Shown piece after piece: positions 18,874 to 57,917 of a stretch of 58,208 bases of DNA. The stretch is from contig JAFTRX010000081.1 of NCBI GenBank assembly GCA_017462015.1, forward strand, positions 1 to 58,208, in the 5' to 3' direction. This DNA comes from Lentisphaeria bacterium. Lineage in GTDB: Bacteria; Verrucomicrobiota; Lentisphaeria; Victivallales; Victivallaceae. Made by a program: the position numbers and the translations under genes. The notes under the pieces are model-generated. The model searched no databases, was not told the origin of the DNA, and saw nothing but the letters and a program-made list of their open reading frames with translations. Positions within the stretch are counted from its first letter, which is position 1. The number at the start of each line of letters is the position of its first letter.

Positions 18874-18900
18874 CACCATTTTTGCGGAGCAAAAATGGTG
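18874..18900 (-). terminator. Displaced tRNA-Val terminator-like hairpin
   Basis: Perfect 12-bp stem CACCATTTTTGC / GCAAAAATGGTG with loop GGA. The right arm ends in the att core that encodes the tRNA CCA end. In the uninfected chromosome this hairpin would directly follow the tRNA-Val gene (minus strand); the prophage now separates them. Confidence 0.55.
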
Positions 18901-18920
18901 GGCGATGAGGGACTCGAACC
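18896..18920. repeat. Left attachment site (25-bp att core)
   Basis: 25 bases from TGGTGGGCGATG to ACTCGAACC, identical to 57841-57865 at the 3' end of tRNA-Val. The sequences diverge immediately on both sides. This copy is a tRNA fragment, not a gene. Confidence 0.92.
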
Positions 18921-18959: not shown

Positions 18960-20048
18960 TTACATATCCAAAATACCTACATCGGCGAGGGTTTCAACTT
19001 CGTGGGCTGCGGAAACGTCATGGCTGTAGAGGTCATTCATGATATCCTGGGTATGTCCGCCGGCAAGGGAAGTGGTACGGCGGTGCAGCTTGGCTTCGTC
19101 GCAGCGGGTGAAGAATGAACTGCGGAAACTGTGAAAACTGGCAGAGCCGTCGGAATTACCTTTTATTCCGAGGCGGTCAAAAAGCTCGCGGAAGTAGACG
19201 TTGCGTGTGGTACTGCAGGTTTTGGCGATGCAAGAGAGCAGGGGGGAAGATGATTCCGGATCAAAGTTTATCTTCTGGAGCATAGCCAGCAACTCTTTAT
19301 GTATACCACAGACGAAGCGGACGCCGCTCTTCGGTCGCCGCCAGTTGATGATGCGGGTTTCGAGATTGACCGCATTGCAGGGCAAGCCAAAAGCGGTGGA
19401 CATATCGGCACCCGCGTAGAAGCCGAGACAAGCTGCGGTGCGGAAAGGTTCTTCAGCCTCCTTGAAGATCCGGCGGAACTCTTCCGGAGTGATCGGCCGA
19501 TGGCTTTCGACATTATCCACGGAGCGGCAGGCGATCGGCTCAAAAGGTGACTTGTCGAGATGCATTTTGACCAAGAGCAGCTTAAAAGCCTTATTCAAGG
19601 CGCATCGATTGTTATTAAAATTCTTAAAGTTTCTGCCGCCGGTGTAGTGCTTTTCGAGATAGGCCAGAGCGACCTGCGGAGTGACTTCATCGGCGTACTT
19701 TTTGCCGACTTTTTCGATAAAGCGGGTTATGATCCGGCGATCGGTACCGGAAGGAGCTTTGATCAGATCGAGCTCTGAAAGCATCCGATCCAGCCGAAAG
19801 CGCTGATTTGCCGGTGGCTCGATCACCGGCGGTGCGACAGTCTTGACTTCGGCCGCCTGAGGAAAGCGTTCCGGAAAATTGTTCATGATCATCAGTTCGC
19901 CTTTTTTGGCTTCGAGCAAACTCATGAACTGCCGATGCAGCCGCTCTGCGGTCGTGCGGTCGTGCGTTTTCAGCGAGCGGGTTCGCTGGGTTCCGTCAAT
20001 ATCGCGAAAATAGACATAGTAGGTTTTATAAATTCTTCGCAGTGCCAT
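18960..20048 (-). CDS. int: Tyrosine recombinase (phage integrase)
   Basis: 362 aa. N-terminal arm-binding-like segment (YVYFRDIDGTQRTRSLKT), core-binding domain about 85-180, catalytic domain 185-362. Box II is clear: FHSFRSSF (His306, Arg309), His332 in AGGHTQDI and Tyr341 in NDLYSHD; Lys240 (RRPKSG) fits the beta-hairpin lysine. The box I position reads YAGADMSTAFGL, with Asp where the catalytic Arg is expected. It lies 40 bp from the left att site, as usual for tRNA-integrating phages, and is last gene of the lysogeny operon (12 bp after the decoy gene). Confidence 0.9.
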   Translation of the reverse strand: MALRRIYKTYYVYFRDIDGTQRTRSLKTHDRTTAERLHRQFMSLLEAKKGELMIMNNFPERFPQAAEVKTVAPPVIEPPANQRFRLDRMLSELDLIKAPSGTDRRIITRFIEKVGKKYADEVTPQVALAYLEKHYTGGRNFKNFNNNRCALNKAFKLLLVKMHLDKSPFEPIACRSVDNVESHRPITPEEFRRIFKEAEEPFRTAACLGFYAGADMSTAFGLPCNAVNLETRIINWRRPKSGVRFVCGIHKELLAMLQKINFDPESSSPLLSCIAKTCSTTRNVYFRELFDRLGIKGNSDGSASFHSFRSSFFTRCDEAKLHRRTTSLAGGHTQDIMNDLYSHDVSAAHEVETLADVGILDM

Positions 20049-20060
20049 GATTTTATACCA

Positions 20061-20717
20061 TTACAAACAGATTTTGAATGCTATTGAAATCATACTGATT
20101 GCAATAACAAAATAAAAAATCAAAATACAGGTTTTAAAATAGTTTTCTTTTGAAAAAATATTTTGCAAAAATTTACACATTGAAGTCGCACACGTTTTAA
20201 CGTATTTCAATACCGTTTTCAACGTAAAAATTATTAGAATAAGAATCAGGAACAAAACAACCATCCAGCCCCCCGAGAAGAAACCCGGCTGCGACTCTTC
20301 CGGCTTTGCTTGCTGCACGCCGAAACTCTGCGCTACCCGGTCAAAGTCAGCCCATGCGTCGAGCTGCTTTCCACCGTTGGCTTTATTGCTGAACTGCTCA
20401 AAATTGTCATAAGCATAGTCGAACATACCGGGCTGAAAACCGAAGTAATAGGCGGCCATAGCGAGCCGTCGGCGGTCTCCGGCGGCTTCCTCCGGAGCCA
20501 TATTGCGATGGAACTGTTCAAGTTCGGCCCGGAAAGCTGCACCGTCCTCCCATGCTTCGGTAAAGGCATAAGGATCTTCTGTAAAGGTGCGGCGGAGCAA
20601 ATCCTGTTTTTGTTCTTCGGTCAAATTTTTGAGTTTGCGTACGAGGGGCTGTTTCGCTTCTGCGATGCTGAAAAAAGTAAAAAACACAAATGCCAAACAA
20701 AGCAATAAATTTTTCAT
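20061..20717 (-). CDS. Exported membrane-anchored copy of the ejection-protein N-terminal domain (candidate superinfection-exclusion decoy)
   Basis: 218 aa. Signal peptide 1-21 (ending SIAEA), a soluble domain about 28-133, TM1 about 151-172, a basic loop (KYVKTCATSMCKF) and TM2 about 195-217. Positive-inside charge places the soluble domain in the periplasm. That domain is a near copy of residues 9-116 of the 2,453-aa virion protein (36966-44327): 49 consecutive identical residues (from FRAELEQFH to DNFEQFS) and 139 consecutive identical bases (20387-20525 against 44048-44186). Its start overlaps the upstream membrane gene by 4 bp, so it is expressed with the repressor. A role in blocking DNA ejection by related phages is inferred. 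Confidence 0.8.
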   Translation of the reverse strand: MKNLLLCLAFVFFTFFSIAEAKQPLVRKLKNLTEEQKQDLLRRTFTEDPYAFTEAWEDGAAFRAELEQFHRNMAPEEAAGDRRRLAMAAYYFGFQPGMFDYAYDNFEQFSNKANGGKQLDAWADFDRVAQSFGVQQAKPEESQPGFFSGGWMVVLFLILILIIFTLKTVLKYVKTCATSMCKFLQNIFSKENYFKTCILIFYFVIAISMISIAFKICL

Positions 20718-21373
20718 TTTTGTACCATTCGCGAATCGATTTTTTCTATTTCAGTATCCTCGTTATCTGCATTAAAAAGATGACATTTCACTTTTTTTCG
20801 CAAAATGTATATCATCACTATGACAGCAAAAGCTACAAATGCAGTTAAGTGCCAACGCCAGGCATTAAAAAATCTTTCGATCCAGAAAATAAAAATCCCA
20901 GCCGCGATCAGGATAAAACCAGAAACCATAGCAATAAATGAGGCATTACCGTACTTTGAATACCACGGATCAACCGTAACACGCTGCACAGTATTGGCGC
21001 TTTCCAAATTTCGGTAATTTATGTAACTATAGAGTGCTTTTGATTCCTCAAACTTAACATGACCGAGGAATGATAAAAGACCTGTAATAATTGCAACAAA
21101 AAAGCAAACAAAGGAGATGGATATTGAAATATAGAACAACGACGTAGCATCCTTCACTGCAAATAAAGTAGAGGATGTTGCAGCAGTGGCAGCAGAAGAT
21201 ATTGTAACAACAAATTTCACCCAGGAAAAATAATTTGATATTCTTGCTGCTGAATGAATATAATATTGCTGTTTGTATTCGTTTCTCAAAATATTCTGAT
21301 TCATTTCTCCATGGTTTACGTTGGCTATATTGCCTTCATTGCAGCAAGCATGAATATTTATACTATCATTCAT
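20714..21373 (-). CDS. Four-TM prophage membrane protein sharing a motif with the repressor
   Basis: 219 aa, with predicted TM segments at about 51-73, 79-103, 144-166 and 175-191 and an acidic C-terminal tail. The cytoplasmic-looking N-terminus carries DSINIHACCNEGNIANVNHG (residues 3-22), closely matching DSISIHADHNSGNVVGVNRG in the adjacent repressor. It overlaps the repressor gene and the decoy gene by 4 bp each (ATGA type), so the three are translationally coupled. No known family recognised. Possible roles are a membrane partner of the repressor or part of superinfection immunity. Confidence 0.75.
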   Translation of the reverse strand: MNDSINIHACCNEGNIANVNHGEMNQNILRNEYKQQYYIHSAARISNYFSWVKFVVTISSAATAATSSTLFAVKDATSLFYISISISFVCFFVAIITGLLSFLGHVKFEESKALYSYINYRNLESANTVQRVTVDPWYSKYGNASFIAMVSGFILIAAGIFIFWIERFFNAWRWHLTAFVAFAVIVMIYILRKKVKCHLFNADNEDTEIEKIDSRMVQK

Positions 21374-21732
21374 TTCTTCAAAACCTTAATAACTTTTACC
21401 TTTTCTTCAGCGGTCAAATCTTCTGTCTCAAGGATTTTATCAACAATCGACGAAAAACATTCCATTGTAACTTTGCCGCGATTGACTCCGACAACATTCC
21501 CGGAGTTGTGATCTGCATGGATAGAAATGGAATCGCCCCCCAACTGCAAACTGGCATCTGGGAATAATTTGTTGATTGTTTTGACCGTAAGACCTTCAAC
21601 ATCTGATTTTCCGGAAATCAAATCGCAGAGATATGCCTGGCTGATTCCAGCAAGTTTGGCAATACTTGCCTGAGTCTCGCCGTTTTGCCACCGTTGAGTC
21701 AAATGTTCTATAATACGTCTTGAATCAATCAT
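21370..21732 (-). CDS. HTH (XRE-like) prophage repressor
   Basis: 120 aa. Residues about 20-45 form a helix-turn-helix (GETQASIAKLAGISQAYLCD). A short glycine/asparagine-rich motif at 67-86 and a C-terminal helical tail (EEKVKVIKVLKK) replace the usual CI-type C-terminal domain. There is no LexA-like Ser-Lys protease, so induction by RecA cleavage is not expected. It is the first gene of the leftward lysogeny operon and faces the early operon across a 132-bp region with two palindromes, the layout of a CI/Cro switch. Confidence 0.8.
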   Translation of the reverse strand: MIDSRRIIEHLTQRWQNGETQASIAKLAGISQAYLCDLISGKSDVEGLTVKTINKLFPDASLQLGGDSISIHADHNSGNVVGVNRGKVTMECFSSIVDKILETEDLTAEEKVKVIKVLKK

Positions 21733-36965: not shown

Positions 36966-39900
36966 TCAAAACCACGACTTTTTCCGTTTCGGTTTGCTTG
37001 CCTCAAGCCAACGCATAATACGCCTGATCTCCCGGGAAGAAACATACAGACCCATTCCAATTGTCCGAGAGGCCGCCGGTCCGGCAGACATGAGTACATC
37101 TCCCGTTGCCTGCAAATAATCAAGCCATTGGACTTCGCTTTTACCGGAAATGTCATTTGCTATGTTAGAGAAATCTCTCGAAAGATTATCAACTATCGGC
37201 ACAAGGGATCTGGGTTGCCGGTCAAAAAAGTTTCCGGTAACAATGCCGCGAATTGTTTTTCCGAGATACCAGATTGCATCAAAGTTTCCAAGAATCCATC
37301 CGGCGACATAATCTTCCCAATCATCAAGGTAATCGGCGAAGTTGATACCATGCCGGAACGCGGAAGCAATAAAATTCATAGACGTAGTAACCAAAATATG
37401 ATTGACTACAATCCGCCTGATCATCTCGTTTCGATTCTCCGGGGTTTTATCTTTTATGTATTTCCGTATAGAAGAGATTTCCAAGCCAAGTTGCTGCATT
37501 GGGCTGGTCATATAAGCGGTAACAGCTCGCATCGCTCCGGAGTTAATATTGAAAGAATTTCTATCTTTCATTGCTCCGGACTGCTGCGTTTCATCCGTTG
37601 CCCGTTTCCACATTTGAAAAGCATATTGCTCAGCTTCCGCTTTAGACATTCCCTTTGCCATTCCATGTTTAAGGAAATAATCATACGCCATATATCCCCA
37701 GAACAAAGCACCTTTTTGATCGCTCCAAGTGGTCAATGCAAGAGATTTTTCGAGCAAAGCATCTGACAGCGGAGAAATGTTTTTTTTCCGGAATACATCC
37801 GTCATCCGTCTGATTGCAGGATCAAAACCGCCATTGGCCCGGTTTGCAAGATAGCCGGAAATCTTGACTTGTGAAATAAATTTTTGATACTGCGCAGAAT
37901 TACGATCAATCGCAATCCGCTTCAATAATTCATGAGGAGGCACATAAAGACTGTATGCAACGCCACCGGCAAACTGACTTGCAACCGATTTCATATTCAA
38001 TGCGATGTTTGCAGGGAAAAACATCTCATTAAAATAATTTGCAATATTGTCATAAATTTTGCCGGGATCGCCGCCTGTCGCCAAAAGTTCAATACGTTTT
38101 TTCCACACATTCCACGCATCATTGCCGAACTCCTTGATCAAAACATTCTGCACATCGATGCTGCTGTAAAGGCTTCTCAATTCCCGAACGGTCTTACTCC
38201 AAGCAATAAAATGAGCAGTTTCCATTTGTTTCCGCATAAAGAGAGAAACAAATCCGCTCTGTATGTCGATCGGCAATGTGTGAAATCTTCTCGCTGTAAG
38301 AAAATTGGCAGAAACTGTCATCCCACCGGCAGAATTGCCGAAACCGGCATCCTGTATTTGAGTTCTGACGCTGCCTTTAAAATCAGCATACCAAAAATTT
38401 TCATGTTCGGGCAAATGAACGCCATACCTTTCAAAGACAGCAGCATCAAGCTGTGGATTTTGTTTTTTCACAATATCCCGCAATGCATACCCCATTTCTA
38501 AAGCTCCCGGATGATTTTTTTGCAGCCATTCTTTGATTGCAGATATTTTTTCTTCCGTGAAACCATTAAAAGTCATATTAGTTTTGTAATAAGGCTGCTC
38601 GGCTGTAAGAATTATTTGCACGGCCTGCTCCGGAGATACAGACAAAGTTTTCTGCTGCTTCAGAGCAGTAGGATCTGCAGACTGGATTTTTATTCTCCGG
38701 ACACTGTGATCATTGCCATCCGAGTCAAAATAAGCCTTCATTGCTGCACTGTCGATATCATCCCCCATATCCCGCTCCTGGTAGATATCTACACCGGCAT
38801 CATATTCATGGATACGGGCTGTCGCCGAAGCTATTGCAATATCATCCAATTTAAAAATCTGTCTTTTATCCTTTAACAACTCAGCAAGGAATGGCGTTGG
38901 TTCAGCTAAATCAAAAGCGACAACTTCATTGCCATTAGTATCGGCGTACACACGCAATCCATTTTTGGTGATCGCCACTGTATAACGTTTGCCAGAAACG
39001 GTATCCGGAGCATTTTCTATTTTGCGTAATTCAGAATAAAGTTTTTTTGCATTTTCCAAATCTCCAACTCTGACTATGCCGTTGACAGCAGTGTCTGAAT
39101 TGATATCCTCTAAAATTTTTCTGGCGTGTTCTAAAACGAATGTTGCAGAGGTCACAGGACGGCCGGCAGAGAAATTAGAATATTTCACAAGATTCTCCGG
39201 CGTCACATTTTTTGGCTGATTTTCGGCAATTCTTGTTGCACCGTACACATCGATAACAATACCGGTGTCCTGGACTTTGGTGAGAGAACGCAAAAATTTA
39301 CCACGTTCGACAAGGCTCTTCAATCCTTTTTCTTTAAAAAATTCATCAAGTTTAGCTTGCGCTTCACGTTTCAATGTTTGTTCCAACTCACTGGAATCCT
39401 CAATCATTTTTAATATTTTACCATGCTCACTGCGGTAAAAATCGGCATCATCGCTGATTCTTGAAAATTCCCGAAGCAACTGGGTATCAGAAAGCGAACT
39501 TACTGCGAATTCTTTTGCATAATTTCTGGTGAGATCAAGGAAACGACGATCTGGAACATTTAAATCACCAAGAGTCATTTCGCTGCGAAGCTTTTCCCTG
39601 GTCTGCCGTATCCGTAGCGCACGTTCCATCATGGTCGTCATGAACTCTTCACGACCGCTTTGGATGAACTTTTTAAGCATATCAAAACTTTTCTGAACAG
39701 CCTCTGGGGTTTTCATATCGAGGTTGCCGTAGTGCTCCAGATAGAAAAGATCATTTTCGTTCTTCTTCAATTCCGATTGGAGACGCGCAATTTCTTGAGC
39801 TCGTTCGACATCATCGCCGGAATCCATCATCCCATCCAGTTGATCCTGAAGTGCAGCCACTTGCTCGGCAGCAAAGCTTCGGAGCACAAGCACTGTTTCG

Positions 39901-42900
39901 GGGTTCATGCGCGAAATCAGATTGATACGGTCAAGAGCTGTTTGACGTTCTCCCATCGGAGAATAGGGAACATTTTTCGCGGTACGTCTGCTTCGATTTT
40001 GCTCGAGCATTTTGTGGATTTCACTAATAAAGTGATCTCGACGGATATTTTTCGCCCTTTGCCGCATTTTATCGAGCAAGCGGTCGAATTCATGCTGCCG
40101 CCGTCCTTCCGGGTATTTATTTGTAGGAGCAGTAGGATATTTCAATAAACCGACAATACCATTAATGAATTCACCGCGATTTTCTCTCTCCAGATGCTTG
40201 TGGGCAAAAGTAGCAGCTTCACGCTGTAATCTGGCAGCATCCTGATTACCTTTGAAAATTTTATCTTTCAGTTCGGCAAGTTTATTCTGCATCTCTTCCC
40301 AAGCAACTTTACGTGCTGCTTTATAAGCTTGTGCATAAGTAGCAGCATTTGCACCTTCTTGAACTAAAGCAGCATTAATTGCCTCAATATCCTTTTTTCC
40401 GGGAGAGAATGGAGCCTCCTTGCCAAACATTTTTTTATAAAGTTCCTTGTAAACAGCCCGGTTATTTTTTACAAATTCCGGATTTACTACCGGTCGTCCG
40501 GACTCAAGAATAGAGATGACTTCATCTTCGATTCGATAACGTTCCTGCTGCATAAAGTCATCTTCAGACAGCAATTCATCCTTATACTTTTTGTATTGGG
40601 AGATAATATCGGTACGCTGCAAGTTCCGGAGGAGGTCGATAATTTCTTCCTGGACATCCTTTAGCTCTCTGCCGCTTTCGCGGGCATAAGCTTGAGCGAC
40701 TTCATCGAGCTGGGTTCCGGAAACTTTGGCAAGAGCCTTGTCGCGTTTGGCAAGATATTTACGGTAAGCGGCATCGGACTCATTGGGCTTCTGACGGCGT
40801 TTGACTGAGTATTTCCGATACTCCGGAGTGATAAAAGTTCCGGTAAATTCATCCCCGGCAAAAGCCATTCCGGGATTGATCTTGAAATCTTCTCCGGCAA
40901 ATCCGACGATGAAGTCAAAGAGCGGGTTGAAACTTTTGAAATATGCCCAGGCATTGACGGCGTTTTGTGCGGCAACATATTTCTGCCGGGCGGAACGGTT
41001 TTCGCTGATGGCAAGTTGAGCGATAACGATCGCCTCATCGGGATCTAGGGTAATGCCGTACTTTTCTTTGAATCTCCGGGCATATTCAGCACCATCCTGA
41101 TCGAGGAAAGGCCCGACACAATCTTGCATCGCTTTGACCTGGAGCTTCAGTTCCTCACTGGCATTGCTGTTGAGGGTAAAGAGCGCACCGTTCCCGTCCG
41201 ACTTGTCCGACCTGTCCGTTCCCGTCCGCTTACCCTCCATAGCTCCGTCCGGAGCGGCGGAGGGTCCGTTTTTGTCCGTAGAGCTTGCATTTTCCGGATT
41301 TTGTGATATATTATTGATATGCTCCGGGCTTGAGGCGGACCCCGCTTTTTGCGAATTTACTTCGCCCGGGGCTCTTTTATTGCTATAAAAGCTTCTAAAA
41401 AAACCTTTCCAACTTGTTACAAGAGTGTATCGAATACCATCAACAGAAATTCTATATTTCTTGTTTTTGGTTTTCCGGTTACGTTTATTTTTAGTTTCAC
41501 TTGGCTTTGGCGTTTGCGCCAATGCTAACGGCAAAAATCTTTCCACTTCTTCAGGTGTTACAGGCCCTTTGCTTGGCTTAAAACCTTCTGCATCCAGATG
41601 CAGTTTCAGAGCATGACTGTTTTTTCCGTCAAAGTGTACGGTGTTACCGTTTCTGGTAATACTTCCACCATACAATATTTTCTTCATAACATCGACACCG
41701 TTTTTCGGAGTCATGGCAAGAATATCTCTTTTCTGCGCTTCGGTAAACGGTTCTGCCAAAAACCTCACCCCATCGCCGTCTCTGCTTGCAGTTCTGCGCC
41801 GGTCTCTGGCGGCTTTTGCGGAGCGGAAGATGATGTTGGCGATATCGTCATCGGAAAAGTGCTTGACCATGATGCCGTGATTATGGAACCAGATGCGGAT
41901 GTTGGAGATCATGCGCTTGAACCAGTTCGGTTTCTGCACAGTATATCCGGTGGCGGCGGCCCAATCTTTGACCAGCTGGCGGCGATCGGCGAGGTTGTGT
42001 ATATCGATATTGTTTTCTTTGGCAAAAGCATCGATATCGGCTTGATTGTCGGCATAAACTTTTCGATAGTCGTATCCTCCCGTTTCGGCGAGATCCGCGA
42101 GGAACTCTTCGGCGGCGATGCGGCGGTTTTCTTCAGACAGCTCTTTAAAGATCTGATTGCCTTCGCCGTCAAAGAGAGGCTTGCCCTCTTCATCAACTTC
42201 CGCTTCGGCAAGGTTGTACTCTTTTACGATGCGGGCCAGCTCCGGATTATCGAAGTTGTCAGCATAGATATTATCGAGCAGGGTATCCATATTCGCTTTG
42301 AAAGCGGCGCGCAATCCGAAGTGGAGACCTGCTTCGTGAGCAAGCACGCGGGGGACTTCGGAAGGGCGGACACTTTGAGCGTTGATAAAGATTTTGCCGT
42401 TATGGTAAAAAGCCGGATACATTTTCCCGAGGACAGCAGATTGGATTTCGGGAGTGCTGTTTTCGATAATGGTCAGTATTTCCGCCGGAAGCTGCGCTTT
42501 GATAAGAGCGATTTGATCGGCATCCCAGTTGGTAAGTTGAGTGACGACATCGGCGGAGTAACCCAGCCGGGAAACCGTATCGGCAACAGCGTTGGCAGTA
42601 TCCTGCGGATCATGCGGGAGAAAACGGACGAGCTTCAAGGTCTGACCGGCGGCTTCGGAATCAGCTGCAGCCTCTTCTGAAACAGCAACACTTCCGGCAT
42701 CATCGGGAGAAGCAGTCTCCTCCACTCGCGGAACGTTGGTCTGTTGTTTATCCAAACTCCGGATATACTGGTGAACCGAGATCATTTCGGCAGCGCGGGC
42801 AATCTTGGCAGGATCAGCCGCATCGTTGAGAACCATAAGCGTATCGAGCAGATACTTCTCATCCGGAGCAAGATCGTTCTGACGGTTCTGCAGATCGGCG

Positions 42901-44327
42901 ATAGTGGCTTGAACGAAGTCGATATTTTTATACTGCCGGAGCATATTTTCGTTAAAACTCTGTTTGGCGCGGTAGTTGCTGGCTTCCAGAGTAAAGCCGG
43001 TGGTAGCGGCTTGAACAAAAGCCTCGGGAACATTCCGGAACATCTCGCCCATAAAAACGCGGGGAGACATCTTTTTGATATCGCCGCGGCGGCCGAAGGC
43101 AACATCGGTAATATTTTCCGCGATTTGTTCGGCCGTTTCTTCGAGCCCCTCCAATGTGGCGGCGGAAGCTCCATTGCGGATAAAACGCGATACCCACTTG
43201 CGCGAAAGTTCTTTTATTAAAGCATCTTTCCCCTGCGGAGTTCCGCCGTTTTTGCCGAAGATCAATTTATTGGTGACAATATCGCCGAGCCCGTTGATCA
43301 CGCCGATGACAGCTCCGTAAGCAAGAGCCTGCTCTTCACTCATGCCCTCATCGAGCGCATTGAAATAAGCATCCGTGCCATAAAAAACACCAAGAGAAGC
43401 TGGACCTGCGAGCGCGCTCATGCCGAGATTGGTGACTGTTGTCGGCAGAGAACCTATGACCGCAACACCGAAGTTCCGGAACCAGTTTGCCGCCGACCCG
43501 GAATTGAATACCCAATAATCGGGGAGAGCGGCATTTTCAGAAACAAATTCAGCCGTATCGCGACCGCCTTCAAGCCGGTTTTGGTAAACGCCGCGCACCG
43601 TATCGGCGGCGAGAGTTCCCGCTTCATAAGGATCGCGGAGAAGTTGTTCAGCGCCGGGAGCCGTGGAAGTTAATTCCAAGCGGGCTTGAGATACGGCACT
43701 CATAGCATAAGCCTTGGCAAGAGCAGCGAAAAAGTTGTAGACTCTGCCGGAAAGAGAAGTCATATCCTGCTTAAGAGCTGCCGGTATCCGTTGAGTTTCA
43801 AAATTGGAAAATCCGGTATCGGCTTCGCGCCGGGCAGTCTCCCCGATCTGCCGGTATTTCTTTGCGGCATCCTCTCTTCCGGCCATAGCCGATACCGCTT
43901 CCATCTTCGCCGCAGAATCAGCGATCGCAACATTGCCGATCGCACTCCAGAACCCGGGCTTCTGCCGCGGCTTCTGATATTGAAATGTTGCCGCCACCCG
44001 GTCAAAGTCATCGAACGCATCGAGAACTTTTCCACCGTTAGCTTTACTGCTGAACTGCTCAAAATTGTCATAAGCATAGTCGAACATACCGGGCTGAAAA
44101 CCGAAGTAATAGGCGGCCATAGCGAGCCGTCGGCGGTCTCCGGCGGCTTCCTCCGGAGCCATATTGCGATGGAACTGTTCAAGTTCAGCGCGAAAAGTTG
44201 CACCGTCCTCCCATGCTTCGGTAAAGGCATAGGGATCTTGGGTGAAAGTTTTCTGCAGAATATCGTACTGTTGTTTTGCTGTCAACGGCCGGAGCTTCCG
44301 GCGAGGAGTATTGTCTGTGGTTTCCAT
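36966..44327 (-). CDS. Giant ejection protein, polyvalent-protein type
   Basis: 2,453 aa. Residues 9-116 form the domain copied in the lysogeny decoy. About 150-450 is alanine/glycine-rich with hydrophobic segments. Near 660, VLAHEAGLHFGLRA fits the HExxxH zincin-like motif of polyvalent proteins. About 880-985 ends YTLVTSWKGFFRSFYSNK, resembling the PBECR toxin-nuclease fold. The middle is long coiled coil. The C-terminus (DETQQSGAMKDRNSFN, AVTAYMTSPMQQ) matches large ejection proteins. By analogy with T7 gp16 it would be ejected into the host envelope ahead of DNA, carrying enzymatic domains. Base composition varies sharply along the gene. Confidence 0.85.
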   Translation of the reverse strand: METTDNTPRRKLRPLTAKQQYDILQKTFTQDPYAFTEAWEDGATFRAELEQFHRNMAPEEAAGDRRRLAMAAYYFGFQPGMFDYAYDNFEQFSSKANGGKVLDAFDDFDRVAATFQYQKPRQKPGFWSAIGNVAIADSAAKMEAVSAMAGREDAAKKYRQIGETARREADTGFSNFETQRIPAALKQDMTSLSGRVYNFFAALAKAYAMSAVSQARLELTSTAPGAEQLLRDPYEAGTLAADTVRGVYQNRLEGGRDTAEFVSENAALPDYWVFNSGSAANWFRNFGVAVIGSLPTTVTNLGMSALAGPASLGVFYGTDAYFNALDEGMSEEQALAYGAVIGVINGLGDIVTNKLIFGKNGGTPQGKDALIKELSRKWVSRFIRNGASAATLEGLEETAEQIAENITDVAFGRRGDIKKMSPRVFMGEMFRNVPEAFVQAATTGFTLEASNYRAKQSFNENMLRQYKNIDFVQATIADLQNRQNDLAPDEKYLLDTLMVLNDAADPAKIARAAEMISVHQYIRSLDKQQTNVPRVEETASPDDAGSVAVSEEAAADSEAAGQTLKLVRFLPHDPQDTANAVADTVSRLGYSADVVTQLTNWDADQIALIKAQLPAEILTIIENSTPEIQSAVLGKMYPAFYHNGKIFINAQSVRPSEVPRVLAHEAGLHFGLRAAFKANMDTLLDNIYADNFDNPELARIVKEYNLAEAEVDEEGKPLFDGEGNQIFKELSEENRRIAAEEFLADLAETGGYDYRKVYADNQADIDAFAKENNIDIHNLADRRQLVKDWAAATGYTVQKPNWFKRMISNIRIWFHNHGIMVKHFSDDDIANIIFRSAKAARDRRRTASRDGDGVRFLAEPFTEAQKRDILAMTPKNGVDVMKKILYGGSITRNGNTVHFDGKNSHALKLHLDAEGFKPSKGPVTPEEVERFLPLALAQTPKPSETKNKRNRKTKNKKYRISVDGIRYTLVTSWKGFFRSFYSNKRAPGEVNSQKAGSASSPEHINNISQNPENASSTDKNGPSAAPDGAMEGKRTGTDRSDKSDGNGALFTLNSNASEELKLQVKAMQDCVGPFLDQDGAEYARRFKEKYGITLDPDEAIVIAQLAISENRSARQKYVAAQNAVNAWAYFKSFNPLFDFIVGFAGEDFKINPGMAFAGDEFTGTFITPEYRKYSVKRRQKPNESDAAYRKYLAKRDKALAKVSGTQLDEVAQAYARESGRELKDVQEEIIDLLRNLQRTDIISQYKKYKDELLSEDDFMQQERYRIEDEVISILESGRPVVNPEFVKNNRAVYKELYKKMFGKEAPFSPGKKDIEAINAALVQEGANAATYAQAYKAARKVAWEEMQNKLAELKDKIFKGNQDAARLQREAATFAHKHLERENRGEFINGIVGLLKYPTAPTNKYPEGRRQHEFDRLLDKMRQRAKNIRRDHFISEIHKMLEQNRSRRTAKNVPYSPMGERQTALDRINLISRMNPETVLVLRSFAAEQVAALQDQLDGMMDSGDDVERAQEIARLQSELKKNENDLFYLEHYGNLDMKTPEAVQKSFDMLKKFIQSGREEFMTTMMERALRIRQTREKLRSEMTLGDLNVPDRRFLDLTRNYAKEFAVSSLSDTQLLREFSRISDDADFYRSEHGKILKMIEDSSELEQTLKREAQAKLDEFFKEKGLKSLVERGKFLRSLTKVQDTGIVIDVYGATRIAENQPKNVTPENLVKYSNFSAGRPVTSATFVLEHARKILEDINSDTAVNGIVRVGDLENAKKLYSELRKIENAPDTVSGKRYTVAITKNGLRVYADTNGNEVVAFDLAEPTPFLAELLKDKRQIFKLDDIAIASATARIHEYDAGVDIYQERDMGDDIDSAAMKAYFDSDGNDHSVRRIKIQSADPTALKQQKTLSVSPEQAVQIILTAEQPYYKTNMTFNGFTEEKISAIKEWLQKNHPGALEMGYALRDIVKKQNPQLDAAVFERYGVHLPEHENFWYADFKGSVRTQIQDAGFGNSAGGMTVSANFLTARRFHTLPIDIQSGFVSLFMRKQMETAHFIAWSKTVRELRSLYSSIDVQNVLIKEFGNDAWNVWKKRIELLATGGDPGKIYDNIANYFNEMFFPANIALNMKSVASQFAGGVAYSLYVPPHELLKRIAIDRNSAQYQKFISQVKISGYLANRANGGFDPAIRRMTDVFRKKNISPLSDALLEKSLALTTWSDQKGALFWGYMAYDYFLKHGMAKGMSKAEAEQYAFQMWKRATDETQQSGAMKDRNSFNINSGAMRAVTAYMTSPMQQLGLEISSIRKYIKDKTPENRNEMIRRIVVNHILVTTSMNFIASAFRHGINFADYLDDWEDYVAGWILGNFDAIWYLGKTIRGIVTGNFFDRQPRSLVPIVDNLSRDFSNIANDISGKSEVQWLDYLQATGDVLMSAGPAASRTIGMGLYVSSREIRRIMRWLEASKPKRKKSWF

Positions 44328-45904
44328 TATTTATCTCCGGCTTTCGGTCTGTTGGATTTTTTGGGGGCTCTGTCGTAACCCAATTTTTTGTCGATCAGCG
44401 GAAAATTGGTTTCCCGCCATTGCAGAAAACTGGAAATAGTTCCATCATTGAGCTGTTTTCTTGCCCAAATAAGAGTATCTATCACATCTTTGGTATCACC
44501 ATATTTTGCGTAGAGCTGTTCAGCAAGCTCCCGGTATTGCAGTTCCATACGCAAATGGTGTGCCATTTGCTGTTCTTTGCTCCAATCGTCGGAGTCTTCC
44601 GATCCGTCCGGGTCCCAGCGGTAAGCATTATTATCTTTGCCAACGGCAGTTATCCACTTGTTGATAACTTCTCCGTCCGGAGTTTTCCAGAAATCCGGTT
44701 TTTTGGAAGTTGTCCCGGAGTTGCGCCCGGGGGCGACTGCTTCCGGAGCAAGAGCGGAATTGAGTTTCGGCATATACTTATCCAAAAGCGAGGTGGAACC
44801 GCCGCAAAGTTTCATTAATTCGAGACGCTTGACGGCGAGAGCAGCTGCTGAATAGGTAAGTTTAGAGCCATCGGCAGCGTATAGAGTTTTGTAGACGAAA
44901 GCTCCGGCGGCATCATCGGCGCGAAGCTGCTCTAATCGCAATTTCTGCTGTTCTTCCTGAGATTGAGAACGCCTGAGATCTTCGTGATACTTTCTGACAT
45001 AAGGTACTGCCGCATTGAATTGACTGCGGGAAATTTTGCCTTCTTCAAATTTGGTCTTGAGATCCTCTACAGTATCGGAAAGAGTTCCGGAGTTGATCTG
45101 AGCGATATAATCCTGAACGAAATCCACCGTCTTTTCTGCGGATTTGGCTTTGGCATATCTTATAAGCTGATCGCGGTTCTTTAACGGCAGAAATGTAAAT
45201 TGCTTTTGGTCTTGCAATCGGTCAAGAGCGGCATCCGGATCGGCTTCTACTGCGGTTTTAGCTTCCAGATATTCGCGGCGCATGGGGAGATCCTGGGTCA
45301 GCAGCCGGGAAGCTGTATCAGCACTCCAGAGCTTACCGGTATTATCCCGCACCAACTTCTCTGCCTCATCAAACTGCCCCCGGTCGCAGAATGTCCGATA
45401 GAGCGTATCCCCCTCATCGAGCAGGCGTTGGGTCTTTGCGGCATTGATGATACGGAGCCGGTCAGAAGCAAAAGATTGCTGCATAGATTGCATATCGACA
45501 TCGTGGCGGTCGCGGAATTTTTTGCTCATGCGGGCAACGATATCTTTTCTTTTCTCCTGATAATCCTGCTGCCACTCAGAGACCCACTCGGTGCGGGTCT
45601 TATCATCCACGGCAGGATTGTTGGCAAGTTTGGCATTAAGTTCGCCGGAACTTGCCTTAAAAAGAGCGCGGTCTTCGGCGGCGGCAAGTTTATCTTCGGT
45701 GTCCTGAAGTTCTATTGCATACTGCATCACGCTGTTGCCGAAGCCGGTGGCGGCATCGCCGATTTTTTTTGCGGCATCAGAAATGGCTTTGCCCGTGCCG
45801 CCGTCGCCGTAATAGCGCAGATGGAGACCGCCGCCGGTAAGAGGAGCTTCTGCGCGGACGTGTTCGATCATTGGGGTGCGGTTGCTCAAAGGTATTTTCG
45901 GCAT
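44327..45904 (-). CDS. Internal virion/core protein
   Basis: 525 aa, almost wholly helical coiled coil (KLAAAEDRALFKASSGEL, WQQDYQEKRKDIVARMSKKF), like T7 gp15-type core proteins. Its stop overlaps the giant gene start (TAATG), so both are made together. It probably forms part of the inner core and of the trans-envelope channel. Confidence 0.7.
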   Translation of the reverse strand: MPKIPLSNRTPMIEHVRAEAPLTGGGLHLRYYGDGGTGKAISDAAKKIGDAATGFGNSVMQYAIELQDTEDKLAAAEDRALFKASSGELNAKLANNPAVDDKTRTEWVSEWQQDYQEKRKDIVARMSKKFRDRHDVDMQSMQQSFASDRLRIINAAKTQRLLDEGDTLYRTFCDRGQFDEAEKLVRDNTGKLWSADTASRLLTQDLPMRREYLEAKTAVEADPDAALDRLQDQKQFTFLPLKNRDQLIRYAKAKSAEKTVDFVQDYIAQINSGTLSDTVEDLKTKFEEGKISRSQFNAAVPYVRKYHEDLRRSQSQEEQQKLRLEQLRADDAAGAFVYKTLYAADGSKLTYSAAALAVKRLELMKLCGGSTSLLDKYMPKLNSALAPEAVAPGRNSGTTSKKPDFWKTPDGEVINKWITAVGKDNNAYRWDPDGSEDSDDWSKEQQMAHHLRMELQYRELAEQLYAKYGDTKDVIDTLIWARKQLNDGTISSFLQWRETNFPLIDKKLGYDRAPKKSNRPKAGDK

Positions 45905-45908
45905 AATA

Positions 45909-46511
45909 TTACCCTTTCTTTATGGCATTATACCCGGACGCGGCGCTCATGGTGAGTTGCCCTGCCTTGAATACACCGGAACCGATCTCGCCAGTGATCG
46001 CGGCGCCGAGAGCCGTGGAAGTCGGCTGGGAGGCTTTGGCGGCAAGGATGTTTTGTCCGGCGATCGCGGCACCATAGCCGTAATCAGCAGCTTTGGAACG
46101 GTGAGCTGCAGCAGCGCGGGCACCGCCGTAGCGGATATCCTGAATTTTGAGTTCTTCGTCGGCAGCAGTCTGACCGAGTATGGCAAGCGGACTGCCGCTG
46201 GTGATTGCAGCGCCGGACTTACCCAAAAGAGCCATCTGGGCAGAGCGAAGCCGTTCCGCCTCCAGACGCTGCCGTCTGGCGTTTTCGGCGTTTTCGGCTT
46301 CAATGGCAGCGGCCTCGCGCTCTTCCATGCGTTTGTTGTACTCCATTTGCTGCTGCTGCATAATAGCGTTGTCTTCAGCATTTTGCGCCGCCTGTTTGGC
46401 AGCATTATGCTGTTCGACAGCGCCGATGACACCGCCAGTGGCGGCGGTTCCGATACCGACAGCAGCCGCAGTGGTTCCGATAATCATCCATGTAATAGGA
46501 TCAGCCATCAT
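45909..46511 (-). CDS. Internal virion protein, gp14-like
   Basis: 200 aa: hydrophobic N-terminus (WMIIGTTAAAVGIGTAATGGVIG), a charged coiled coil (AIEAENAENARRQRLEAERL), and GAAITSGSPLAILGQTAADE, which recurs in podovirus core proteins at this locus. It follows the GNAT-like gene by a 4-bp overlap and precedes the core protein by 4 bp. Confidence 0.7.
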   Translation of the reverse strand: MMADPITWMIIGTTAAAVGIGTAATGGVIGAVEQHNAAKQAAQNAEDNAIMQQQQMEYNKRMEEREAAAIEAENAENARRQRLEAERLRSAQMALLGKSGAAITSGSPLAILGQTAADEELKIQDIRYGGARAAAAHRSKAADYGYGAAIAGQNILAAKASQPTSTALGAAITGEIGSGVFKAGQLTMSAASGYNAIKKG

Positions 46512-46967: not shown

Positions 46968-49262
46968 TTACTCTCCTATCTGATAAATGGCGGTGAGCAC
47001 CGAAAGGTTGAAAGGCAGAGGATCGGCTTGAGTTACCGTGATACTGGTCGATTCTCCGAAGCCGGAGACAGTAAGTATTTTGACCATTTCGGTTTTTTGA
47101 GAGATAAAGCTGTCAAAATTATCCTCCAGAATGTCGCGGGAAATTATAGTTTGAGGAGACCCATTTCCGCAAGCGACCTTGCCGCCGACAGAGGAATAAA
47201 CGCGCAACCGGAGTTCACTGATTCCTTTGACGCGGAGCATGGTTGATCCGGACTGAGTATCCAGTTCCATCGGCATCGGCGACAATGTGGAAACGAAGCC
47301 GAGCCCGGCAACACAACACTTGACGGGATAGTCGAGAGTGACCGAGCCATCTTTCACCGTTCTTTCCGGATGGACGGAGCCATCGGCAAGTATCTGGACG
47401 GTCAATCCCTCTAAATGCTCAAGTCCAGTCAGTTTCCTGGCTCTTTCCTCAAACGTAAAAACTTTTGAGCAGTCGGTATAGATCTGCTTAACTGGATCAG
47501 CTGACTGGTTACGTCCGGCCATCACCTCGATGCAAATTTTTCCGCCGCGATCCACGGCAAAATAGATGAGGTCTTCATCGCCGTTGGGCACAACGGCGCA
47601 GGAGATGAATTTCCCGGAAGTCACATGTTTCTGCCACCCGATAACCTCTTGCTCGCGTTCATAGGTGAGAGCGGCGAGAGAACCGTCGGAGAGCACACAC
47701 CACAAAATGGAGTCCGGCAGCTGCTGCAGAGCTGTCGCAATGATCCCGGAAGCAGTAATGTGTTCAGCTAAAATCGTCATATCCGGAGCTGCGTATCCAT
47801 CTTTTTCCCACTGGAAGACAAACTCCCGGACTTTTCTGGAACCGCGCTGAACGAAGAGGACAGTTTCGCCGACCATTTGAGCTTGCACTTTAGCCGATCC
47901 GTAAACGCTCTGCCGACGGATGCGGAAATTGGATGGAGTCAGAGCGCTGGAGGTATCCGAAGCGCTCAAGGTCCATTCAGAATCCATGGTGCCGATAATG
48001 AGAGCATCGTGTTGAACCATCCAGTTTATCGTATTTACGGTATCGGCGGCAATGGTGAAATCCAATGCATCATCATCTTTGTCGCCGATAAGGAAGTTGT
48101 CCCAGTTGTTGGTTTTGCTGCCCCAGACAGTTTGCGGCCGGCTTTCTGAACCGCCGAAAATCATGCGTTCTTCATAAAAAGCAATTGAGCGGGGAAATCC
48201 GCGGCGGGAACTCCAGGCACCTTCGTTCCATTCGGAAGTTGGAGTAATACCGCCGAGTTTTTTTACGACAGTACCTTGTGCCACCGTTGGAGAGTCGACG
48301 CGGCCAATTCTGACCACGCCGGTGACGGAATAGTCGGGATTGACAAGGAGACAGCGGCAGAGCTTCAAGGTCCCGGTGGAACTTGCGGCATAATCTTCCA
48401 TGCGAAGCCGGTAGAGGACATTTTCCTCTTCTTCAGTGCCGTCGGTAGAGATATTGACATCTTTAGCGGAGCTGTAGGTGCGAAAATCGCTCCAGGTATT
48501 TCCGCCGTCAAAAGAGCGTTGAATAGTGACCGTACCGCTCCAGGTGCCGTGAGTGGTAAACGACCAATAGCCGAAAACTTCGAGAGCATCAGTGACACCG
48601 TCAGCTTTGAAGTCGACCGCGATCTCATTTTCTTTTCGAGTATGGATGAGTTGGAAATATCCTCCCTCGTTGCCGGCAGAGAAAGTATCTTTGCTGGCAG
48701 TGAGAGTTATCCAGCTTCCGTTCGAGGAAGATACTGCAGACGGAGTAATGGTAGCCTTGTCGTCCAGATTGGGTTCAAGGCAGGGAGGAAAAGCGAACTC
48801 TTTTTCAGTGAGAGTAAAAGAGTTTTCGGCAATGCGTTTCAGTTCCATCACCGGGCGAGAGGGATGAACAATGGTCATCACGTCGGCGGACTGTACAAAC
48901 TGGATGTCAGCAAGTTCCTGAGCAAGATAGGGAGAAGCTATCTCCACAACTGCACCTTCGGCATCGAGGACCGGAGCGGCAGAACGGAAAAAGCGGATAT
49001 ATCTGTCTCCGAACTCGCAGACATAAGAGACTGTCGAAGAAAAAACGAAACGGATCAGCCGGACGTGACCACTCTGCTTGGCAAAAGCGACAAACACGGT
49101 ACCGGGACGGCGTTCTGCTGCGCCGTAGGGTGTGACCATAAAGTTTTCGAGTTTACTGCAGCCTTTGTGGTATTGGGAGACGTCGGTTCTGCCGACCATC
49201 TTGGGAGAGAGTTCTCCGGCATTAAAACTGTTGATAGAGGCGTAAAGAGGCATAAGTTTCAC
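46968..49262 (-). CDS. Tail tubular protein B (gp12-like nozzle)
   Basis: 764 aa. The opening FNAGELSPKMVGRTDVSQY, then ENFMVTPYGAAERRPGT, is the hallmark of podovirus tail-nozzle proteins. The rest is beta-rich, including FYEERMIFGGSESRPQTVWG and DFTIAADTVNTINWMVQ. It forms the distal tube that joins tube protein A to the fibres. Starts within the last 4 bp of the gp11-like gene. Confidence 0.85.
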   Translation of the reverse strand: MKLMPLYASINSFNAGELSPKMVGRTDVSQYHKGCSKLENFMVTPYGAAERRPGTVFVAFAKQSGHVRLIRFVFSSTVSYVCEFGDRYIRFFRSAAPVLDAEGAVVEIASPYLAQELADIQFVQSADVMTIVHPSRPVMELKRIAENSFTLTEKEFAFPPCLEPNLDDKATITPSAVSSSNGSWITLTASKDTFSAGNEGGYFQLIHTRKENEIAVDFKADGVTDALEVFGYWSFTTHGTWSGTVTIQRSFDGGNTWSDFRTYSSAKDVNISTDGTEEEENVLYRLRMEDYAASSTGTLKLCRCLLVNPDYSVTGVVRIGRVDSPTVAQGTVVKKLGGITPTSEWNEGAWSSRRGFPRSIAFYEERMIFGGSESRPQTVWGSKTNNWDNFLIGDKDDDALDFTIAADTVNTINWMVQHDALIIGTMDSEWTLSASDTSSALTPSNFRIRRQSVYGSAKVQAQMVGETVLFVQRGSRKVREFVFQWEKDGYAAPDMTILAEHITASGIIATALQQLPDSILWCVLSDGSLAALTYEREQEVIGWQKHVTSGKFISCAVVPNGDEDLIYFAVDRGGKICIEVMAGRNQSADPVKQIYTDCSKVFTFEERARKLTGLEHLEGLTVQILADGSVHPERTVKDGSVTLDYPVKCCVAGLGFVSTLSPMPMELDTQSGSTMLRVKGISELRLRVYSSVGGKVACGNGSPQTIISRDILEDNFDSFISQKTEMVKILTVSGFGESTSITVTQADPLPFNLSVLTAIYQIGE

Positions 49263-57840: not shown

Positions 57841-57917
<77 letters not shown>

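Follow-up and report, generated by a model that had tools for sequence, protein, structure and literature searches.

Why would a temperate phage encode, beside its repressor, a piece of its own ejection apparatus that is predicted to be exported and membrane-anchored? The question is raised by a gene in a contig of a Lentisphaeria bacterium (JAFTRX010000081.1), of which we analyzed a stretch of 58,208 nt, hereafter the window. The prophage in the window is bounded by exact 25-bp direct repeats, attL at 18896-18920 and attR at 57841-57865, which represent the 3' end of a tRNA-Val gene (57841-57917) that contains attR. The first-pass annotation placed the gene in the repressor operon, and this proved right. 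On the minus strand, an HTH repressor-like protein is the operon's first gene (21370-21732; phrog_6831, E 8e-7, and our family alignment A3), followed by a multi-span membrane protein of 219 aa (20714-21373), the 218-aa ORF of the copy (20061-20717), and an integrase (18960-20048; phrog_1 integrase, E 3e-19; Pfam Phage_integrase at 25.4 bits, below the cut-off of 27.1). The first three genes overlap by 4 nt each, and the integrase starts 12 nt further on. One sigma-70-like minus-strand site (21784-21757) precedes the repressor; the promoter scan found 15 such sites versus 8.4 expected from shuffles and is uninformative. The prophage also encodes a terminase, head-tail adaptor, major head protein, and tail protein. 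As a separate observation, the 219-aa membrane protein (from residue 5) and the repressor (from residue 69) have a short motif in common, INIHACCNEGNIANVNHGEMN / ISIHADHNSGNVVGVNRGK, possibly a shared oligomerisation element, and the repressor of locus L232 contains a similar stretch.

The protein that was copied, which we call the giant, is a 2,453-aa member of the ejection cassette (36966-44327, minus strand). Upstream of it on the same strand are a tail protein (46968-49262; phrog_376, E 1e-192), a gp14-like internal virion protein (45909-46511; phrog_418, E 2e-11, with Pfam T7_gp14 sub-threshold), and a gp15-like cassette protein (44327-45904), assigned by its position and by homologues in G108, G133, G002, and, weakly, G009 contig C37. 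The order tail protein, gp14-like, gp15-like, giant is identical in G108, G133, and G002. In T7 the gene order is gp14, gp15, gp16, so the giant, coming after gp14-like and gp15-like genes, holds the gp16 place of the T7 cassette. It differs from T7 gp16 in having no family match: no Pfam or PHROG family, gp16 included, scored over threshold, and only DUF6576 appeared below it.

Giant homologues are present in 28/198 genomes. Their N-terminal domain, which by BLASTP, alignment, and HMM spans residues 10-128 in the window (43944-44300, minus strand), was found in 6/137 genomes of the order and in 5/387 genomes of a draw from the phylum (the host's own genome is included in all three counts), as well as in 9/80 IMG/VR loci that had been retrieved through the tail protein; one of the nine is marginal (L202, E 0.009), and some are the same phage twice. 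Many giants carry a tandem short motif ahead of this domain: IPTWEETTPV twice in G108, VPRFEDCTPIE/VPKFEECTPIE in G120, IPQFEETQPL/IPKFEETQPL in G099, NPSWEES twice in L152/L157, GPWEDYQ twice in L153, and KPWEMF/KPWEYF in G133. The G002 giant has a tandem of another kind, and the giant N-termini of the window, G009 C37, and L164/L226 show none. Outside the G002 prophage but near it, an ORF at G002:C39:133959-134987 (L059) repeats giant residues 886-1043 (158 aa) at 91% identity; a transporter-like gene has its 3' end duplicated around this ORF, one copy on either side, and the ORF looks like the remnant of a related element.

The likeness of the ORF at 20061-20717 to the resident giant, claimed in the first-pass annotation, is far beyond chance. 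The extent given there, residues 28-133 against 9-116, was slightly too short: BLASTP aligns residues 27-148 of the copy (20274-20639, minus strand) with residues 10-128 of the giant, with 96/122 columns identical (79%, E 1e-61). BLASTN matches 231/248 nt of the two genes, and an HMM built from giants, that of the window included, scores the copy at E 1e-26. The 49-residue identical run and the 139 nt of identical DNA reported earlier (20387-20525, minus strand, and 44048-44186) are both correct. Ten giants have five invariant residues (F, D, P, A, N), all of which the copy retains, and the host assembly, about 93% complete, contains no further copy. Recombination between the two 139-nt stretches could remove about 23.7 kb of the prophage.

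Around the copied domain, the remaining parts of the protein point to the envelope, a location predicted from hydrophobicity alone. Residues encoded at 20655-20717 read as a signal peptide (MKN, a hydrophobic core, and AEA|KQ, from sequence reading and a hydrophobicity scan), and two membrane spans are predicted by hydrophobicity at 20208-20264 and 20076-20132, all on the minus strand. The loop between the spans has five K/R and one D/E. By the positive-inside rule a positively charged loop marks the cytoplasmic side, so the copied domain is predicted to be in the periplasm. Just before and at the start of the second span is the segment FSKENYFKTC (residues 188-197), which is also found in G009, and the corresponding proteins of L245 have FSKENYYKTC.

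Outside the identical tract, the copy and the giant have diverged at dS 1.17 and 1.05 in the two flanks, with dN about 0.22 and dN/dS about 0.2. Inside the tract there are 0 differences in 46 codons, and no such run arose when the codon differences were shuffled 20,000 times. Taken together, the high-dS flanks, the low dN, and the difference-free tract show a duplicate that is old, constrained, and recently re-homogenised. We read the 139-nt tract as the trace of recent gene conversion or exchange, and since it lies without a difference between flanks of dS>1, the copy was re-matched to its giant. A simple misassembly driven by this repeat is unlikely: with a pair of direct repeats on a single linear contig, the only arrangements open are the present order and a deletion, the differences between the copies to the left and right of the tract would also speak against it, and a second case exists in another record.

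That second case was found upstream of the integrase of an IMG/VR phage of 26,852 bp (3300033463_000837, hereafter G199, the record behind L153), and it is what the first-pass annotation had proposed to look for in related phages, a membrane protein with a signal peptide, encoded next to the repressor, whose domain matches the resident giant. The tail proteins of the window phage and the G199 phage are about 65% identical, so the phages are related. The G199 operon runs repressor, copy, integrase, which puts the copy among the lysogeny genes and in the same place as in the window. Its 338-aa protein consists of a signal peptide, a GPWEDYQ motif, the helical domain, and then a DUF6804 scaffold (PF20619, 27.5 bits, over the cut-off of 27). 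This scaffold is not that of the window copy: neither the window copy nor any other protein of the window's own genome matches DUF6804. Compared with the N-terminus of the 2,730-aa giant of the same contig, the G199 copy has the same amino acid in 112/120 codons, and an HMM built from giants, G199's own included, scores it at E 1.8e-37.

Over the 100 domain codons compared, 8 differences between the G199 copy and its giant are synonymous and 4 change the amino acid (dN/dS 0.14). If half of the synonymous change is assigned to the copy, 14.7 amino-acid-changing differences would be expected under neutrality against the 4 seen (P 0.001), and with a quarter or a tenth assigned to it significance is lost (P 0.14 or 0.82); these values give moderate support to selective constraint on the G199 copy. 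In both clear cases the copied piece is the first ~130 residues of the giant. Between each other they have only 25/96 residues the same (about 25%), versus the same amino acid in 96/119 aligned codons for the window copy and its own giant and 100/103 in the domain for G199. From these comparisons, the two fusions would be either independent, or old and each re-matched to its own giant. Because both cases come from related phages, there may have been a single old origin with a later change of scaffold and re-matching.

To see how widespread displayed copies are, we counted an operon as comparable if the repressor-integrase interval was visible and this ejection cassette was present in the same contig, record, or apparent phage. 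Near-duplicates were merged (L247 with G207, and L245 with G203, which have 1,236 identical bases in common). We left out L244, whose operon is cut by the contig end, G024, a remnant with no giant in the contig, and G051, G117, G014, G102, G098, and G133 contigs C45 and C46, which have no tail, gp14, or gp15 match of this kind in the part covered. Of the nine operons that result, two display the N-terminus of their own giant (the window and G199), one displays a motif (G009), and the other six (G002, G108, G133, G204, G207, and G203/L245) have membrane proteins without a giant-derived ectodomain. The expectation that the domain would always match the resident giant is not supported by these six, nor by G009, where the motif matches the giants of other phages. 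Related prophages lacking any copy, named in the first-pass annotation as grounds for rejecting its proposal, are the majority here, although G199 stands as a second case. Since most comparable operons are without a copy, we consider the ectodomain to be an optional module and not a rule.

Wider searches gave the same two copies. Over 286 loci (2.63 Mb, with overlaps), the domain occurs at E <=0.05 outside giants or cut giant ends only in the window and G199 copies; the weakest matches (L036/L285, L160, and L167, E 0.0016-0.046) are in long ORFs, presumed giants. The window copy and the G199 protein had no match at E 0.01 in 50,697 phage records, and the phylum draw of 387 genomes held no further standalone copy. 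Single-query searches of IMG/VR with the window copy, the G009 protein, and the giant returned nothing; alignments were required. Among IMG/VR loci, 47 contain an ORF of at least 900 aa; most of these stop short of the immunity operon, and no giant duplicate was found in them at E 1e-6. When ORFs were compared within each of 15 contigs, several of them without an immunity operon, and antisense or overlapping matches were set aside, a giant matched a separate ORF in the window pair, the G002 remnant, and G084, the last a 23-aa match between neighbouring ORFs. The repressor family has a match in 54/137 genomes; beyond the known prophages we examined 11 of 30 such loci, and the scan for the domain and for the motif covered all loci. 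DUF6804 matches occur in ten genomes, and 0/7 of the DUF6804 loci examined have a giant-type ectodomain. In several genomes of this order, DUF6804 membrane proteins are found near an HTH gene or integrase, as in L269, L272, L279, G108:C3, and G002:C39. At G002:C39:140666-141857 (L059), one immunity region contains three tandem repressor paralogues.

The motif case, G009, is from the same genus as the window genome. It has two membrane proteins with the window-type scaffold segment FSKENYF.T, one of which carries a signal peptide and a tandem VPKWEDCVDVDPAPDIPKWEEGVDVD, while the other, of 147 aa, is the scaffold without an ectodomain, as are the FSKENYF-type proteins of L245. An alignment of the FSKENYF scaffold gave strong E-values in 137 genomes for the window and G009 only (27 further genomes with matches at E 0.0018-0.1 were treated as noise), and against genome contigs it found one locus, apparently G009:C68 itself. 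We searched for tandem P.[WF]E[DE], a pattern picked after the sequences were seen, in a phage-rich set of 12,370 ORFs (1.71 M aa) that includes duplicates, and it occurred only in the G009 protein and in giant N-termini (G108, G120, G099, and L152/L157); over all 286 loci it was likewise confined to the G009 protein and giant N-termini. The apparent giant of the G009 prophage, on a separate contig, C37, linked to C68 by 40 identical bases, is without the displayed motif.

We also considered G024 as a third case. G024:C55:2947-5387 (L136) is a prophage remnant with a repressor, two membrane proteins, and a shortened integrase; contig C55 has no giant or tail match, as if the immunity operon itself had been retained in the remnant. 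A 413-aa DUF6804 protein there (37.3 bits, over the cut-off) starts with an N-terminal anchor, and the alignment of its ectodomain to the domain model runs from end to end, with E-values of 0.005-0.008 when two chosen proteins were scored and about 60 when the whole ORF set was. With E-values this poor, G024 is a weak candidate and we do not count it.

Our preferred explanation, which we hold with somewhat more belief than doubt, is that the copy is a superinfection-exclusion decoy or a dominant-negative subunit directed against the incoming ejection conduit. The gene would have been assembled from a signal peptide, a duplicated giant N-terminal domain, and a two-span membrane anchor. Judging from the operon, the copy would be made with the repressor in the lysogen, and by its predicted topology it would be anchored in the inner membrane with the domain facing the periplasm. 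If the internal proteins of an infecting phage come from a matching cassette, the anchored domain would take up a contact on which the incoming giant N-terminus depends. This contact could be with a gp14/gp15-like protein, with a second giant subunit, or with a component of the host envelope, and its occupation would block or poison the DNA conduit. The second case and the constraint on the copies support this reading in part, but the copy is not general among related operons. A phage with the same repressor would already be barred by immunity, so the matching of a phage to itself needs a further reason, such as heteroimmune phages that carry the same cassette.

Could the displayed domain instead be a sensor? 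It would then act as bait that binds an incoming gp14/gp15-like protein or giant, after which the membrane part, either the anchor or the coupled 219-aa protein, would act, e.g. by a membrane-potential collapse that aborts the infection. The 219-aa partner is indeed coupled to the copy by the 4-nt overlap, and both scaffolds also occur at this operon position without an ectodomain, the DUF6804 one in G002 and G108, so the scaffolds may have an activity of their own. However, no known effector domain was matched: neither protein of the window pair has a PADLOC hit, and Pfam gave only sub-threshold matches, for the 219-aa protein DUF3278 and DUF4231 among them. One scaffold relative, the G009 147-aa protein, weakly matches the PADLOC '2TM effector' (E 0.016). 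We regard a sensor as unlikely.

Somewhat less plausible still is that the giant N-terminal domain has a binding partner in the host envelope and that the lysogeny protein reuses the domain to alter or mask this partner. The constraint on the domain between copy and giant would fit, but such reuse by itself leaves the re-homogenisation with the resident giant unexplained, and also an operon such as that of G009 with a giant-type motif alone. It is improbable that the copy serves the phage during its lytic cycle, made late and exported so as to stop released virions from re-injecting or to help assembly or lysis. Such a function is consistent with the resident giant being matched in 2/3 informative cases, but both copies are located between repressor and integrase, away from the late genes. 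That the gene is a functionless relic of illegitimate recombination, retained by chance, is very improbable, for although the G002 remnant shows that pieces of giants do scatter, here the frame, signal peptide, and anchor are all intact, the old flanks (dS>1) have a low dN/dS, and the second case puts the same N-terminal piece on another scaffold in the same place.

Beyond the decoy explanation for the single gene, we tentatively suggest a more general scheme, to which we give rather less than even credence. Temperate phages with a T7-type cassette may copy the N-terminus of their own giant onto interchangeable immunity-operon scaffolds, with gene conversion keeping the match, and the helical domain, the tandem PxWE[DE] motif, or both, as shown by different phages, could form a swappable, target-derived exclusion code.

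Exclusion proteins that act on the ejection conduit are known, while the basis of their specificity mostly is not. If the decoy explanation is true, the specificity element is the target's own domain, which can be read from sequence and predicts the excluded phages; it would also point to an N-terminal contact that ejection proteins require, and what the tandem N-terminal motif does in giants becomes testable. Other prophages could then be searched for genes next to a repressor that encode an exported virion ejection domain.

The closest known parallel is P22 SieA, an inner-membrane prophage protein that acts on the gp16/gp20 ejection conduit of a short-tailed phage (PMC10883804). Like SieA, the window copy is prophage-encoded; a place in the inner membrane is predicted for it, and the copied domain suggests that it may act on the ejection conduit. 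The two differ in that SieA is not described, in the part of that source we draw on, as derived from an ejection protein, whereas the window protein carries a copy of its presumed target; the P22 ejection proteins themselves are said there to have little recognisable similarity to those of T7 (PMC10883804). HK97 gp15 and TP-J34 Ltp are prophage-encoded exclusion proteins that are overcome by changes in the tape measure gene (PMC10883804), and SNIPE is a membrane-bound nuclease at the DNA entry site that contacts the tape measure protein (PMC13190303). By analogy, all three have the same place of attack as we propose for the window copy. HK97 gp15 and Ltp concern long-tailed phages, with no virion copy mentioned in the passages cited, and SNIPE cuts DNA, whereas no nuclease family was matched here. 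Tai (tail assembly interference), found in prophages and other elements, targets phage structural proteins and, according to the portion of the report we cite, was shown not to be superinfection exclusion (PMC11364771). Pfam, PHROGs, and PADLOC gave no match of the window copy to a family named for exclusion, and among the matches listed from the open-access full-text literature (titles and abstract starts) none describes an exclusion protein derived from an ejection protein of the virion. What is new in comparison with these systems is that the exclusion candidate contains the N-terminal domain of its own presumed target and has been re-matched to it.
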